In this document: piece after piece, positions 1-5,311 of the stretch | Numbering within the stretch: the first letter of the stretch is position 1 | How the letters are laid out: each line of letters begins with the position of its first letter | DNA from: Puniceicoccales bacterium | GTDB lineage: Bacteria > Verrucomicrobiota > Verrucomicrobiia > Opitutales > LL51 | Length of the DNA: 10,845 nt | Assembly (NCBI GenBank): GCA_031276935.1 | Contig: JAISMD010000057.1 | Location: forward strand, 1-10,845 | Reading direction: 5' to 3' | Notes under the pieces: generated by a model | What the model was told of the DNA's origin: nothing | What the model saw: the letters and a program-made list of their open reading frames with translations, nothing else | The model's database searches: none | Program-made: the position numbers and the translations under genes

Positions 1-1229
1 ATGGCAACCACCAGTGCGCCAAAGATGACCGCACAAAATAGGGGAGTCGTCGAAAAGGATTGAAGAAATGCCGCCAAATTTTCTCGGAACAGAACAAAGG
101 TGAAGAACGATGAACCCAATAGAAGCAGCATGAGAGGCGTTGCAAAGGCCGCTGTAGCCCAGCGACAAACGCGGAGAATGTTGCCGCCAATGATGAGCAT
201 TATCATCGAAGCAATGCCACCGTAGAAAGTAAATTGATTCATGAATGTGTTATAGTCATTGGGGTCGGAATACTGCATTCCCAATTGCTTTTTCCAAAGG
301 CCTTCCACCAGATTTACGCTGATGCCGTAGCACACAACCAGCGCCACAATAAGACCCAAATAGGGCGATGTGAAAATGACTTTAAAACTCTGCCAGAGGG
401 GCATTTTTTTCTTACCTTTTCCCGTATTGCCGGGGAGTTCCGGTTTGTCGTAGAAGCGCTTATCGGTGAGCACGTACCGGTAAATCCAACGGTAAACAAT
501 CATCGCTGCGATCCCTAAAATAACCACGATCCCCATCATATATTTTAGGGAAATTTCCCAGGCATCGACGCCGGCGGGAACTTTGTTGTGGATGTCGGAA
601 CACCATTCGCCCACTTTGCCTTCCAATAGGACGGATATTTGGGCCATAAATGCAAAAAATGCATACATTCGTTTCGCTTCGGAAGTCTTCGTAACCTGGT
701 TGGCAAATTGCCAAAACGATAGCGATAGCAACGCTGAACCCCAGATTTCTGCCAGAATGTAGAAAAGGGAATAGGACCAATTCCCAACAATGGCGATGGG
801 CCAATGGAGGAAACTGGGAGTGGAAGCTCGCCAAACGGCTATGGTTTCGGAGGAAAAGTGTAGCGCGTTCAAATTGGGGTAAATGAAAAATGCAAAACAA
901 CCGAAGAAGAGAATAAATGGCGTCAATGTCACATAAAATAGGTGTTCGTTGGTGAAAATATTACTCGCTTTGGTGTAGAGGAGCATGAAAATAATGGCCG
1001 CAGGCGCAACGCAATACCCTTTCAGAAATGGAATAACCTCCGCATCGGATCCCGGTCCCGTGACGATGAGCGAATCCTTAATATTCCTCAGACAGGTGTA
1101 GTTAAAAAGAATGCAAAAAAACATAAATCCCATGGGGATTGCCTTTTTAAGTTCGTAGGCGTAGATGGGGAAAAAGATGCGTCGCAATTTTCCGAATTCC
1201 TGACCATTTCTTTGTATCGTATCTGACAT
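1..1229 (-). CDS. tlc: ATP/ADP translocase (NTT/Tlc nucleotide transporter), 3' end cut by window
   Basis: Members of this family sit in the inner membrane and exchange host ATP for ADP, or import other nucleotides. Reading from the ATG at 1227-1229 gives 409 uninterrupted codons to the window edge; the family is usually about 500 residues, so the C-terminal fifth is missing. About ten of the usual twelve membrane helices can be seen, near residues 31-48, 68-86, 97-117, 151-175, 188-203, 230-250, 290-308, 334-352, 357-381 and 394-409. Family signatures include the N-terminal KLRRIFFPI and ELKKAIPM, FNYTCLRNIKDS (43-53), AEVIPFLK (63-70), AEIWGS (160-165) and NLVEGLWKKQL (306-316). K51, E161 and E309 match three of the four charged residues reported as essential in the plant plastid homologue; the fourth lies outside the window. 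The start is preceded by AGGA about 7 bases upstream. The substrate (ATP/ADP exchange versus other nucleotides) cannot be told from sequence. Family call is firm; the symbol is generic. Confidence 0.95.
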   Translation of the reverse strand, partial: MSDTIQRNGQEFGKLRRIFFPIYAYELKKAIPMGFMFFCILFNYTCLRNIKDSLIVTGPGSDAEVIPFLKGYCVAPAAIIFMLLYTKASNIFTNEHLFYVTLTPFILFFGCFAFFIYPNLNALHFSSETIAVWRASTPSFLHWPIAIVGNWSYSLFYILAEIWGSALLSLSFWQFANQVTKTSEAKRMYAFFAFMAQISVLLEGKVGEWCSDIHNKVPAGVDAWEISLKYMMGIVVILGIAAMIVYRWIYRYVLTDKRFYDKPELPGNTGKGKKKMPLWQSFKVIFTSPYLGLIVALVVCYGISVNLVEGLWKKQLGMQYSDPNDYNTFMNQFTFYGGIASMIMLIIGGNILRVCRWATAAFATPLMLLLLGSSFFTFVLFRENLAAFLQSFSTTPLFCAVIFGALVVA

Positions 1230-1390: not shown

Positions 1391-1453
1391 TTTAAATATT
1401 TTTAAAAAATTTTAAAAATTTTACTTGACAGCGGTAAATTTGTCGGCGATACC
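1391..1453 (+). promoter_or_regulatory. Candidate promoter with UP-like A/T tracts for the exported protein
   Basis: A perfect -35 hexamer TTGACA lies at 1425-1430. It is preceded by alternating A and T runs (1391-1424) that resemble an UP element bound by the RNA polymerase alpha C-terminal domain. At 17 bases spacing the -10 is only GATACC (1448-1453, 3 of 6), so activity may depend on the UP tract or an activator. A good ribosome site, AAGGGA (1465-1470), stands 6 bases before the ATG at 1477. Confidence 0.5.
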
Positions 1454-1476: not shown

Positions 1477-2460
1477 ATGAAAAATACAATTAAAATTAAA
1501 ATCGTTTCATTGATCGTTGCTAGCCTATGTGGCTCAGCATTTGCAAACAATGCTTGGGAAGAAAATTCTTGTGAATCTCCTAATTATCCTGGGCTTGGAG
1601 AGCAAGTTATCCATGATTATTATATGGATCCTTCTAATAATTATGGATATTATGGTAGTTCTTGTGCATTAGCTAGGTCGAACATCCGTCTTTTTGTCGA
1701 TGCATCCAGCAGGAAATTCGCATTTCTGGATTCTGCCGGACGTCCCATGTATTTTATACTGTGTGAATCCCTGAAAAAATTCCTTTCCAAGGATTGTTGC
1801 TGCCATGTTCTTCCGAACAAATTGTTTAATAGAATTGTCGATAAAAAAAGCTGCGATAAAATGAAGAACTTTTACGCCCAAAATTTGGGTGATATCGTAC
1901 ACCGTGCCGAGCTTGAAAAAGATAATTTTAAAAAAGAATATGATTCGGGCTTGAACGTTATCGTTTTAGAAAATATTACAAAGCCTGAATGTCGCTACAT
2001 TGTGGATGCAAAAAATGCCCGAGTCTTTTCATGTTTACCGGGACAGCTCAATAAAGTTTGTTCGATGAAACTCCCTGAGGCTATTTTCCAGAAAATAGTA
2101 AAAGATTGCAATTACATTAGCATTAATGGTGAGAAACATATTGTTTTTGATTTCTTGGGTTTAGCGGCAAAGGCTAGAACCATTACGGGTCAGAAATTAA
2201 GTGTGGCGAAGGATTATGCGATTGTGGCAAAAGATGTTGTTCTAGACTGGGCAGCAAAGGCTGCAATCGTTTTGGGCCCAAGATTAAGTGCAGCGAAGGC
2301 TTGGTTCCAACCAAAGATGCATGTTGCTTGGACGTACAGCAAATGGGGCATGGCAGATGTGTTGAAAAAAACTGCCGAGATATGCAGCATTTTGTCGGAT
2401 AAATTACGGCCTAAGGATCAGATAGTAGCAGTGGAAAATATAACCATAGGCCAAAACTAA
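1477..2460 (+). CDS. Exported cysteine-rich protein of unknown function with internal duplications
   Basis: I do not recognise this 327-residue protein. It starts with a classical Sec signal peptide: lysine-rich n-region (KNTIKIK), hydrophobic core and an AFA|NN cleavage site after residue 23. C18 does not sit in a proper lipobox, so it is probably not a lipoprotein. The mature part has 12 cysteines (residues 32, 63, 96, 107-109, 126, 172, 186, 195, 211, 303), suggesting disulfides in an oxidising compartment. Two related modules are visible: 71-126 and 173-211 share R-[LY]-[FI]-VDA, then C-x(9-11)-C-x3-LP-x2-[LI]F-x2-IV ending in Cys. The C-terminal third (229-276) is Ala/Lys-rich and carries a second, 29-residue-period duplication. 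The ATG has a well-spaced AAGGGA, and an intrinsic terminator follows. Codons are clearly more A/T-rich than in dnaG or rpoD. Facing the ATP/ADP translocase, it could be an envelope or host-interface protein, but this is inference; it may equally be a lineage-specific orphan. Confidence 0.85.
   Translation: MKNTIKIKIVSLIVASLCGSAFANNAWEENSCESPNYPGLGEQVIHDYYMDPSNNYGYYGSSCALARSNIRLFVDASSRKFAFLDSAGRPMYFILCESLKKFLSKDCCCHVLPNKLFNRIVDKKSCDKMKNFYAQNLGDIVHRAELEKDNFKKEYDSGLNVIVLENITKPECRYIVDAKNARVFSCLPGQLNKVCSMKLPEAIFQKIVKDCNYISINGEKHIVFDFLGLAAKARTITGQKLSVAKDYAIVAKDVVLDWAAKAAIVLGPRLSAAKAWFQPKMHVAWTYSKWGMADVLKKTAEICSILSDKLRPKDQIVAVENITIGQN
1687..1854 (+). repeat. Duplicated Cys module A of the exported protein
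   Basis: Residues 71-126: RLFVDA opens the unit, C96 and C108 precede LPNKLFNRIV, and C126 closes it. It aligns with module B (1993-2109) with a gap of about 15 residues between the VDA segment and the first Cys. Residues from C108 to V121 align with C195 to V208 at a constant offset of 87, with L112/L199, P113/P200, F117/F204, I120/I207 and V121/V208 identical. Confidence 0.6.
1993..2109 (+). repeat. Duplicated Cys module B of the exported protein
   Basis: Residues 173-211: RYIVDA opens the unit, C186 and C195 precede LPEAIFQKIV, and C211 closes it. This is the shorter copy of module A; C172, just upstream, may be an additional partner. Confidence 0.6.
2161..2304 (+). repeat. Tandem 29-codon duplication in the exported protein C-terminal region
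   Basis: Nucleotides 2161-2217 and 2248-2304 start exactly 87 bases (29 codons) apart and match at about 39 of 57 positions by eye. They encode LAAKARTITGQKLSVAKDY and WAAKAAIVLGPRLSAAKAW, a shared AAKA...G-[QP]-[KR]-LS-x-AK pattern separated by ten residues. An amphipathic helical segment is likely. Confidence 0.75.
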
Positions 2461-2505
2461 TCATCGGAATTCTTTAAAAAATTAATAAAAAAATATTTTC
2501 AAAGG

Positions 2506-2531
2506 CGGATCATCAATGGTCCGTTTTTTTT
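2506..2531 (+). terminator. Rho-independent terminator after the exported protein
   Basis: CGGATCA (2506-2512) and TGGTCCG (2517-2523) form a 7-bp stem with one G-T wobble around a TCAA loop, followed directly by eight T (2524-2531). The A/G run just before the stem can pair with the T run and extend the helix. On the minus strand the same hairpin is followed by a T-richer stretch, so it may also stop the converging helicase transcript. Confidence 0.9.
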
Positions 2532-2636: not shown

Positions 2637-5105
2637 TTATTCCGTTTTTAGGAGTTCATGGATATGCTGGAGGAAAAATTCCGTTCCCCGTTGTTTCACT
2701 TGGAGGGAATCGATAATTTCGCTAAATAGGGAAGTTTTTTTCTCCTGGAGCCGTTGGATTGAGGCTTCTATGGAATTTTGTGCGATTAGGCGGTAGATTG
2801 TTACTTTTTTATCCTGACCGATGCGATGAACCCGATCCATGGCTTGTTTTTCCGTGGAGGGATTCCACCAGGGATCCATTAGGAATACCGATTCGGCCGC
2901 GGTCAACGTGATACCCACACCACCCGCTTTCAAGGATATTAGCATGATTGCACTGTTCCCAACGCATTGGAATTGATCCACCACCACATTGCGATTCTTC
3001 GTCGAACCAATGATTTCGAAGCAATCAACGGTGGGGAATTCTTCCCGCAACATGGATTTGATGCGCCGTAGAAAACGAACAAATTGACTGAAAATAACGA
3101 CTTTTTTCTGTCCCTTCGAAAATTCACTCACCAATATGTCGCGGAGTGTACCCAATTTACCACTTTCCCAGAAGGGTGTTTCGACGGAGGGTACGATGGC
3201 CGGATCACAGGCTACCTGGCGTAGGCGGGTCAGGGCGGAAAGGATGCCGAAACGGTGATTCTTGAAATCGAAGTGATGTTGCTCATCGCCGTAGCGGCGG
3301 AGGGCGTGGTTCATGACCGATTTGTAAAGATTCTGCTGTATTGAAGTCATTTCACAGGGGACATTGATTTCTATCTTCTGTGGCAATTCTTTGGCAACCA
3401 TCTCCTTCGTCCGCCGTAGCATGAAAGGAGCAATTTGCTTCTTGAGCCTAGCGCCGATCTCTTCGCCTTTGCATAGTTCAATGAATTGTCCCTTTTCCCC
3501 CAGTAATCCCGGCATCAAAAATCGGAAAATACTCCATAGGTCGAGTAAATTATTTTCGATGGGAGTGCCGGTGAGAGCCAATCGCCATTGGCTTCGGATA
3601 GCGGTGCAGGCGTAGAATACCTTGGTTGCCGAATTTTTAATGAATTGGGCCTCGTCGAGTACGGCGAGTTGGAATGTCTTTTCGGCGATCTTCGCCTTAT
3701 GGCGACGCAGTTGGGTATAGCTGATGACCCAGATATCGATCCCTTTTTCATCCAGATTCGATGCCGATGAAAATATGCGTAGCTTTAATTTCGGGAAAAA
3801 TTTTTCCGCCTCCCTCTGCCAGACGTAAACCACACTCGCCGGACAAACGACAATGCTGCTTTGTCCCCCATTCATTTTGGCGATGAAGGTCAAAACCTGC
3901 AGTGTTTTTCCCAATCCCATGTCATCGGCGATGAGGCCGTGGAAACCGTGGCGGAGAATATGGTTGATCCAAAAAACACCCTCCCGTTGATAGGAACGCA
4001 GTATTTGGGGAAGCGTAAGGGATTGATTCGGAGGAGAAGTGAAGGAACGTTGCCATTCTTCCATGGAGGGATCATTTCCGTAATTGAGTTCCGATAGATT
4101 GAAAATGGAATAAATCATGTAGCGGGGAATGTGACCGTTGAATTTATTAAGCACACTGCGTTGTGCTGCGACGGCGGTAATTTCTTTTTTCCCCATGCGT
4201 ACGGCTCCCAGTCCGTCGATCAGGAATGGATTCCCATCGCTTTTCAGTATCTTAGGAATAAAGTGTTGTTCCAGAATATGGGTACCATCGGAGAGCTGTA
4301 GGGATAGGTCGGAGAACCCGTTCCCATTTTCCACCCCACTCCTAAAAATAGCGTGAATTTCCCTAGGTCCTTGGCATAGCTTTTCCACATTACCGTCCAA
4401 TTGGATGCTGAAATCGTTGTGCCAACGGGGTAGGGTGTAGCGACAAAAATCAATGGCCGAAGCGGTGTGGCTAATGCGATATTCCTTGCTCTTCTTGTAA
4501 AAAGAAAATCCCGATTTCCTTGCGAGATGGATCAATTTGATGACCGCATCCCGTTCCAATTTCGTGGCCACATTGGCGTAGCGGGAGAGGTGATTGGGAA
4601 AGACTAATCTATGGTTTTCCATCCAGTAGGCCCGGAAACATAGATGTTGGCCGGAGGTATAGAATAACAGGTGTAATATCTTATCGCCGAGCTTATTTTC
4701 GTCACATTCCTTTCCGTTGCAGGGGGGACATCTATGGAGCGTATCACCGTCTTCCTCGTCGTGGAGAAAGAGGGCATCCTGTTTATCGATGATCGCCTCG
4801 TCCATGGCCAGTAGGGCACCGATGGCGGCATCGTTCTTATCGGCGACGGAGGAACGGGCGGATAATTGTCCTTCTTCCAGGTCGATGACGGCGAATAATT
4901 GGGTCTTGCCTTCCCCAAAATACCGGACAATCACGTCATCGGAACGGATTTCGATTTCCCGAATGGGACAGCGTTCGAGGAAGCGCATCCCCTCCCTAAT
5001 TTCATCCTTCGAAAAAGTATTTTGCCAGTCCTTTTGGGCGAAAATTTCCATCCAATTTTCAAGGGATTGTCGCTTGAATGTGACGGCTGGAGCGCGATTA
5101 TGCAT
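2637..5105 (-). CDS. SNF2-family DEAD/DEAH helicase-like ATPase
   Basis: This is a superfamily 2, SNF2/RapA-like DNA translocase: it hydrolyses ATP to move along double-stranded DNA and is expected to remodel protein-DNA complexes rather than unwind strands. In numbering from the chosen ATG at 5105 (822 residues): LRSYQREG (369-376), Walker A in DDMGLGKT (394-401), Walker B DEAQ (484-487), motif III LTGTPIEN (511-518), motif IV VIFSQF (670-675), motif V SLKAGGVGITLT (724-735) and motif VI DRVHRIGQ (757-764). All ATPase motifs are intact. The N-terminal half (1-360) is not a family I recognise; it has a small CPPC-x4-C cluster near 126-134 that could bind metal. The frame stays open to an ATG at 5237, but those 44 extra residues are low-complexity, encoded by AT-rich DNA and lack a ribosome site, so I prefer 5105. 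The role is unknown: it may assist transcription recycling or repair. Nothing nearby suggests a defence island. Confidence 0.93.
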   Translation of the reverse strand: MHNRAPAVTFKRQSLENWMEIFAQKDWQNTFSKDEIREGMRFLERCPIREIEIRSDDVIVRYFGEGKTQLFAVIDLEEGQLSARSSVADKNDAAIGALLAMDEAIIDKQDALFLHDEEDGDTLHRCPPCNGKECDENKLGDKILHLLFYTSGQHLCFRAYWMENHRLVFPNHLSRYANVATKLERDAVIKLIHLARKSGFSFYKKSKEYRISHTASAIDFCRYTLPRWHNDFSIQLDGNVEKLCQGPREIHAIFRSGVENGNGFSDLSLQLSDGTHILEQHFIPKILKSDGNPFLIDGLGAVRMGKKEITAVAAQRSVLNKFNGHIPRYMIYSIFNLSELNYGNDPSMEEWQRSFTSPPNQSLTLPQILRSYQREGVFWINHILRHGFHGLIADDMGLGKTLQVLTFIAKMNGGQSSIVVCPASVVYVWQREAEKFFPKLKLRIFSSASNLDEKGIDIWVISYTQLRRHKAKIAEKTFQLAVLDEAQFIKNSATKVFYACTAIRSQWRLALTGTPIENNLLDLWSIFRFLMPGLLGEKGQFIELCKGEEIGARLKKQIAPFMLRRTKEMVAKELPQKIEINVPCEMTSIQQNLYKSVMNHALRRYGDEQHHFDFKNHRFGILSALTRLRQVACDPAIVPSVETPFWESGKLGTLRDILVSEFSKGQKKVVIFSQFVRFLRRIKSMLREEFPTVDCFEIIGSTKNRNVVVDQFQCVGNSAIMLISLKAGGVGITLTAAESVFLMDPWWNPSTEKQAMDRVHRIGQDKKVTIYRLIAQNSIEASIQRLQEKKTSLFSEIIDSLQVKQRGTEFFLQHIHELLKTE

Positions 5106-5117
5106 ACCTAGCCGAAC

Positions 5118-5146
5118 ATTCTGCAAAAAAAGAATGAAAATATCAA
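5118..5146 (-). promoter_or_regulatory. Candidate promoter for the helicase gene
   Basis: On the minus strand TTGATA (5141-5146, 5 of 6) and CAGAAT (5118-5123, 4 of 6) are separated by 17 bases. Initiation would fall only a few bases before the ATG at 5105, giving a nearly leaderless transcript, which weakens the case; the only Shine-Dalgarno-like bases, CTAGGT, touch the ATG. Confidence 0.3.
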
Positions 5147-5311
5147 GTATTTTCCAAAAACCTATTTTTATATTGCCGTTGGAATTTAAAAATACTACCG
5201 GTGTACACCCTCCGATGGAGAAAAAAGGTTTCGCCATGAATTTTCGTGTCGGGAAAGGAAAACGGGGAAAAACCTAGGAATAATAGAATTTATGGCGAAA
5301 GACTTGATTTT

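Follow-up and report, generated by a model that had tools for sequence, protein, structure and literature searches.

A putatively exported two-module protein encoded between ATP/ADP translocase and SNF2-family genes in one genus of small-genome Opitutales

Amp and Imp, the antigenic and immunodominant membrane proteins of phytoplasmas, belong to host-dependent bacteria and are classed partly by chromosomal gene organisation, and 'strong positive selection' has been described for them in PMC3143171. Repeats of 11 residues that form a 3-11 helix have been described in perilipins, synuclein and apolipoproteins (PMC5889406). A synuclein-like region is also ascribed to WalE1, a Wolbachia effector that colocalises with actin (PMC4958246). 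The protein studied here, referred to as X, was likened to Amp and Imp without any claim of sequence relation. X would likewise be a membrane protein of a host-dependent bacterium and was classed partly by its place on the chromosome; however, it differed from Amp and Imp in having a two-module core with a repeat tail and a dN/dS not significantly above 1.

The window, i.e. the whole stretch of DNA analyzed (10,845 nucleotides), carried the following features.

3..1229, minus strand: TLC-type ATP/ADP translocase gene (TLC), leaving the window and divergent from X; Pfam PF03219, 473 bits
1425..1430, plus strand: TTGACA, resembling a -35 hexamer and lying 5' of X, from the intergenic alignment
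1477..2460, plus strand: coding sequence of the putatively exported protein X, 327 aa, ATG start; relatives adjoin the same neighbour genes
1477..1545, plus strand: predicted Sec-type signal peptide of X, residues 1-23, judged by eye
1672..1860, plus strand: module 1 of X, residues about 66-128, FxFLDxxGxP ... CxxLPxKLFxxI, from hhalign against module 2
1861..1947, plus strand: linker of X, residues 129-157, the negative control, with a profile matching neither module
1948..2151, plus strand: module 2 of X, residues about 158-225, xxVDxxxxR ... xxxxLPxxI[FY]xKI, from hhalign against module 1
2152..2457, plus strand: lineage-variable C-terminal tail of X, residues 226-327
2164..2215, plus strand: tail repeat of X, copy 1, 52 nt, at a spacing of 87 nt (29 codons)
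2251..2302, plus strand: tail repeat of X, copy 2, with 73% identity to the first
2501..2528, plus strand: intrinsic-terminator-like stem-loop (12 pairs) with a T tract, 3' of X
2637..5237, minus strand: SNF2-family helicase gene (SNF2), convergent with X, the other border; Pfam PF00176, 188 bits

The open reading frame 1477-2460 was real and had been read correctly in the initial annotation (327 aa from an ATG). The predicted signal peptide, MKNTIKIKIVSLIVASLCGSAFA, ended in AFA as described there; it was judged by eye without a predictor, and signal-like N-termini were seen in the same way in the alignment of all nine X copies. Thirteen cysteines were counted in X, of which C18 lay within the signal peptide, leaving 12 in the mature chain. 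Both motif series noticed at the outset were also present, namely R71-x2-VDA76, LP113-x2-LF-x2-IV121 and C126 in the first and R173-x2-VDA178, LP200-x2-IF-x2-IV208 and C211 in the second. The X gene was divergent from the ATP/ADP translocase gene, as had been noted, and stood single between it and the convergent SNF2 gene. Beyond the latter, dnaG was identified further along the window by Pfam; two more genes there are, by our own recognition, rpoD and pheT. Four terminator-like sites were found in the region against 1.3 expected. The bases TT[GT]AC occupied the position of TTGACA in 7 of 8 aligned intergenic regions; the promoter scan did not list the hexamer at 1425..1430, and promoter pairs were no more frequent than by chance. 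A search of the window against Rfam gave no RNA at the gathering score.

The distribution of X was investigated in a sample of 372 genomes of the order, 12 of them from the genus, the window's own genome being G000. A nine-row profile (E<=0.001) detected relatives in eight genomes, all of the genus, i.e. in 8 of 12 members versus none of the 360 other genomes of the order. Within the genomes and databases searched, X was confined to a single genus; hence the gene and its place were known from that genus alone, though not from all its members. The relatives were 16-28% identical to the window copy (16-27% in one comparison), the G002 copy being an open frame at 16%. In all eight genomes the gene adjoined TLC and/or SNF2: both borders lay on one contig in five (G000, G002, G004, G006 and G008) and one border was visible in three (G003, G007 and G010). 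As to whether X is a multi-copy family, a question raised at the outset, these searches returned a single locus in each genome; in G003 this locus comprised two copies in tandem, the second of which (G003b) was cut by the contig end. The G007 copy ended early, within module 2 (203 aa).

The remaining four genomes of the genus gave no relative with the nine-row profile, several assemblies being incomplete. In G001, TLC and SNF2 were apart and SNF2 had other neighbours; an unrelated signal-bearing ORF was divergent from TLC (L025:3468-4437) and matched itself alone among the 12 genomes. The contigs of G005 stopped 280 and about 360 bases past the two borders. Neither border gene was recovered in G009, and in G011 no TLC was recovered and another ORF end was found at the SNF2 border. 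The sister genus (G012, G013) contained no X relative, and its TLC and SNF2 genes had other neighbours. Based on the G001 arrangement and the four genomes without a relative, it was concluded that the X gene and its place are not indispensable.

A search with the window protein alone found no homologue among 5.8 billion proteins. When the best 7998 candidates by shared words were scored, followed by 7611 in a second round, only P0003 (the G002 copy, recorded as 'Opitutales bacterium') and P0004 (87% identical to the G002 copy, recorded as 'Verrucomicrobiota bacterium') were related to X among candidates of about 180-572 aa. In a search of 53 genomes at E<=1, 11 had a match; those in G009, G048, G033 and G052 (E 0.05-0.31) were taken as chance. 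Two genome_contigs loci, in Roseburia (L013) and Intestinimonas (L014), had tblastn E values of 1.0 and 2.5, respectively, at a larger database size and look like chance as well, within ORFs that are unrelated; another ORF of L013 reached E 0.015-0.05 against the X profiles. A mobile origin was rejected, as no relative of the window protein was found in plasmids, phages or viral contigs, the last being searched for close relatives only. The resolution of the X, TLC and SNF2 trees was too low to separate vertical descent from exchange. Two further irregularities were observed near these loci: a 115-bp tandem array of four copies upstream of the SNF2 gene in G003 (contig C33, L045:3507-3969), and an ORF start, MSDSLAELNNRIREASSW..., that occurred twice in G007 (contig C23, L031:8050-9039 and 11182-11421), possibly through partial duplication or an assembly effect.

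We proposed that X is this species' form of a lineage-specific exported protein encoded at a fixed place, tlc - X - snf2, in a genus of small-genome, translocase-bearing Opitutales. X would be synthesised as a Sec precursor. The core of its mature part is built from one strand / LP-helix module that is present twice, in diverged form; the tail behind it contains repeats, is probably helical and varies among species in length and make-up. The binding partner of the core would vary from lineage to lineage and would most likely be a host molecule; the tail would hold the protein to a membrane or lipid surface. We give this reading, a Sec-exported host-interface protein with a partner-binding core and a membrane-held tail, about an even chance. 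Export is suggested by the signal peptide judged by eye, and a host-facing role by the lifestyle and by the rate of change, which is often high in proteins that face a host; the exported, possibly host-facing protein of the initial annotation is, to this extent, one that we also infer. The genomes of the genus measured 0.6-1.1 Mb as assembled, and a family suggested as possibly free-living, UBA9783, has been described (PMC12306168). If the proposal is true, most species would carry a fixed, easily found place with a fast-changing exported protein beside a nucleotide-import gene, which could help to find the host cell in or on which each species of this poorly known genus lives. Bacterial exported proteins would, moreover, be seen to assemble tails from in-frame helical repeats, as eukaryotic lipid-droplet and vesicle proteins do. 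Should the host-facing part prove wrong, X would still represent a protein family that is new and whose internal duplication is supported.

Further, the rates of change were determined by the NG86 method with our own script for two close pairs, G004-G010 and G007-G008. For X, dN/dS was 0.441/0.501 = 0.88 in the first pair and 0.175/0.439 = 0.40 (interval 0.24-0.60) in the second, while TLC gave 0.038/0.792 = 0.05 and 0.081/0.975 = 0.08, respectively, and SNF2 0.068/1.037 = 0.07 in G007-G008. The X core alone gave 1.14 (bootstrap 0.77-1.76) and 0.51 (0.30-0.88) in the same order of pairs. The X protein evolves much faster than its TLC and SNF2 neighbours; the ratios are rough because the dS of X was below that of TLC in both pairs (0.50 vs 0.79 and 0.44 vs 0.98). 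As dN/dS was not significantly above 1, relaxed constraint is possible and adaptive change is not proven.

Near-neutral drift of a functionless, decaying orphan gene would agree with the core ratio of 1.14 in one pair, with the early stop of the G007 copy in module 2 and with the four genomes without a relative, several assemblies being incomplete. However, nine frames were open with signal-like starts, that of G002 even at 16% identity, the ratio in G007-G008 was 0.40, and the LP-x2-helix motif was retained in most aligned copies. We regard decay as distinctly unlikely.

The ancient duplication inside X that had been suggested from two similar segments was supported at the level of profiles. 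Module 1 matched module 2 (8 rows) with an hhalign E of 2.7e-4, a score of 22.9 and a probability of 42%; none of 300 column shuffles was as good (maximum 15.6), and the reversed profile scored 9.6. Disjoint halves of the rows gave E 0.023 and 0.0053. When the modules were realigned separately in four row sets, two of which excluded the window protein, E ranged from 2.7e-4 to 1.8e-3, none of the 200 shuffles made for each set was as good, and the linker controls gave E 0.2-0.9. Single sequences carried less of this signal. The Smith-Waterman score of the two modules in the window protein was matched by 38 of 1000 shuffles, and the corresponding counts were 4 for G003a, 18 for G003b and 208-589 for the other six copies. 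Either short motif occurred twice in none of 20000 shuffles of the mature window chain, the motifs having been picked post hoc. The duplication is supported as real and old, the hhalign probability of 42% being modest.

The signature attributed to both units held in part. The LP-x2-helix was shared, while the pairing of the R-x2-VDA motifs was not: the best register paired L-D85 (of FxFLDxxG) with V-D177, so VDA76 was not the partner of VDA178, and the profile register consisted of an LD/VD strand and the LP-x2-helix. R71 and R173 were found in the window copy alone among the nine aligned copies. The majority residues were YLF-x-D-A ... F-x-x-L-D-x-x-G-x-P ... C-x-x-LP-x-K-LF-x-x-I in module 1 and V-I-V-L-Q-D ... 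x-x-V-D-x-x-x-x-R ... V-Y-x-I-x-LP-x-x-I-Y-x-K-L in module 2.

The initial annotation had taken the duplicated unit for a disulfide-bonded domain; on this reading the duplicated module would be secreted and stabilised by cysteine pairs, which would define the family. The 12 cysteines of the mature window protein would suit this, as would C109, which all nine aligned copies share, and C126, present in 6 of 9. However, no cysteine of module 2 was conserved throughout, C186 occurring in 5 of 9 copies and C195 and C211 in the window copy alone, so that cysteines were not conserved at matching places of the two modules, and the further relative P0004 had Tyr at the place of C109. The DsbA-type thioredoxin fold PF13462 was found in 0 of 12 genomes of the genus versus 9 of 14 control genomes, a search that covered one oxidase family, with VKOR and others outside it. 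Owing to the low conservation in module 2 and the absence of PF13462, the disulfide part was left unsupported, and the paired-disulfide module as a whole is very improbable.

That X matches no known family, as first reported, was upheld for the core, for which nothing exceeded a curated cut-off in Pfam, NCBIfam or PDB. The window protein had no match in Pfam at E<=1, in NCBIfam at E<=5 or in PDB at E<=5. The best matches of the nine copies and the core profile had E values of about 0.05 in Pfam, 0.0095 in NCBIfam (in a tail) and 0.12 in PDB, none of them over a curated cut-off. PHROG matches were found in relatives and none in the window copy; the best had an E of 5.7e-4, several were to tape-measure families, and our guess is that they reflect helical repeats. 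Matches of bPH_1 to the G008 and G007 copies (E 0.14 and 0.26, respectively) were too weak, and those of ApoE chains to the X linker (E 0.43 or worse) were likewise rejected.

Past module 2 the copies had little in common. In the window tail, LGLAAKARTITGQKLSVAK recurred at the protein level as LDWAAKAAIVLGPRLSAAK with an offset of 29 residues (0 of 200 shuffles), which is an addition to the initial account; this repeat and the shared chromosomal place of X are the new facts reported here. Six tails from the nine copies were examined, because G007 and G003b end before the tail and the short tail of G008 was excluded. Self-offsets were 29 residues in the window copy, 22 in G010 and 51 in G006 (0 of 200 shuffles each), and 11 in G003a, G004 and G002 (1, 4 and 15 of 200 shuffles, respectively, the last being weak). 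The DNA arrays of the tails had periods that were multiples of three, namely 18/33/66 bp in G010 and 66/87/117/153 bp in G006; in G003a, 93-bp tandem units lay within module 2. The hydrophobic moment of an 11/3 helix over the whole tail was significant in four of six tails (G006, reached by 2 of 1000 shuffles; G010, G003a and G004, by none) and not significant in the window tail or G002, where 138 and 186 of 1000 shuffles, respectively, reached the value. Hydrophobic 19-mers occurred past module 2 in G003a, G004, G008 and G010. Residues 248-266 of the window copy formed a borderline one, with a mean of 1.5 like that of the relatives', although it contained two Lys and two Asp.

The X tail is probably helical. 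In several relatives of X the tail has a period of 11 or 22 residues, reminiscent of the 11-mer amphipathic helices of alpha-synuclein, perilipins, apolipoproteins and CCT-alpha, and the 11/3 moment of four tails has the geometry described in PMC5889406. From this periodicity and the hydrophobic segments of several relatives we infer contact with a membrane or lipid surface, more weakly for the window copy. The likeness has its limits: X had no Pfam match to those families, is bacterial and carries a signal peptide, and the window tail combined an offset of 29 with a moment that was not significant, so the window's own tail is a point against the lipid view. Residues 266-314 of the G010 tail weakly resembled the WalE1 family NF047982 (E 0.0095), but scored 14.9 bits where the cut-off is 90, and this was seen in one of nine copies; the window copy had no NCBIfam family at E<=1, NF047982 included. 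The likeness of G010 to WalE1 is probably one of shared repeat geometry, not family membership.

The hydrophobic 19-mers could equally serve to anchor the protein in the membrane of the bacterium itself. X could then be an ordinary, fast-drifting envelope protein under relaxed constraint, periplasmic or anchored past module 2, and not facing a host. Such an envelope protein would fit these segments, borderline in the window copy, the dN/dS below or near 1, and the GC content of X, which was 0.386 vs 0.458-0.490 in the window's other genes. It accounts less readily for the same neighbours being kept in 8 of 12 genomes although the copies are 16-28% identical to that of the window, for the strong constraint on TLC and SNF2 in the same genomes, and for array periods in multiples of three. 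We consider an ordinary envelope protein possible though somewhat unlikely.

A bolder form of the host-interface reading may also be put forward. X would represent an unnamed family of symbiont exoproteins that leave through Sec and type II secretion to the host, coat host or symbiosome membranes with synuclein- or perilipin-like tails, recognise a lineage-specific host partner with the two-module head, and are encoded at a dedicated, fast-evolving site beside the ATP/ADP translocase gene. This coat model is unlikely, and our estimate of it was lowered slightly because the G001 locus was no like-for-like swap of the occupant.

With regard to export routes, three secretins were found in the window's own genome. 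The first matched GspD best (TIGR02517, 317 bits, below the cut-off of 351), with its GspD N0 domain over the cut-off (PF21305, 33.4 vs 27), and this GspD-like secretin makes an exit of X through Sec and type II secretion possible. The second matched the Amuc_1098 pilus family best (358 bits, below the cut-off of 750). The third (L065, contig C53) was a type III SctC (332 bits, cut-off 238) next to a CesT-like chaperone (25.8 bits, cut-off 22). Nine of the genus's 12 genomes contained FHIPEP/SctV, which was not found in the own, 83%-complete assembly.

These type III genes, together with an ORF end at the SNF2 border of G011 (contig C42, L048:1-318) similar to the SseC translocator C-terminus (PF04888, 20.9 bits, below the cut-off of 30.2), could be taken to mean that X belongs to the type III system of the genus or is exported by it, e.g. 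as a translocator-like protein. However, type III substrates as a rule lack a Sec signal, and X as such a substrate was rejected because of its Sec-type signal peptide (by eye); nor did the nine X copies show any SseC match at E<=1. A type III role of X is scarcely credible.

The presence of a non-flagellar type III secretion system in a genus of Opitutales with small genomes (L065, L069, L070, L071-L073) is an observation in its own right. Among the papers listed by a literature search, none had a title on type III secretion in Opitutales symbionts, and the word 'secretion' occurs 0 times in the main text of PMC12306168, on the possibly related family UBA9783. In G004 (contig C35, L070), SctV (TIGR01399, 884 bits) was accompanied by SctY. 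Past SctV and one ORF of 400 aa, a giant ORF of at least 1980-2378 aa was found (L070:1-7134, L072:1-6553, L069:8061-14000), truncated in each case where the stretch or contig ended. Signal-bearing ORFs were also seen by eye near SctY-SctV, none of which matched the X core profile. Four lay upstream of SctY-SctV in G008 (L069:374-4007), of which two had nearly the same signal peptide (KSIAAMVVVGGLLNSASVAT) but differing mature parts; a single such ORF stood at this place in G004 and in G002.
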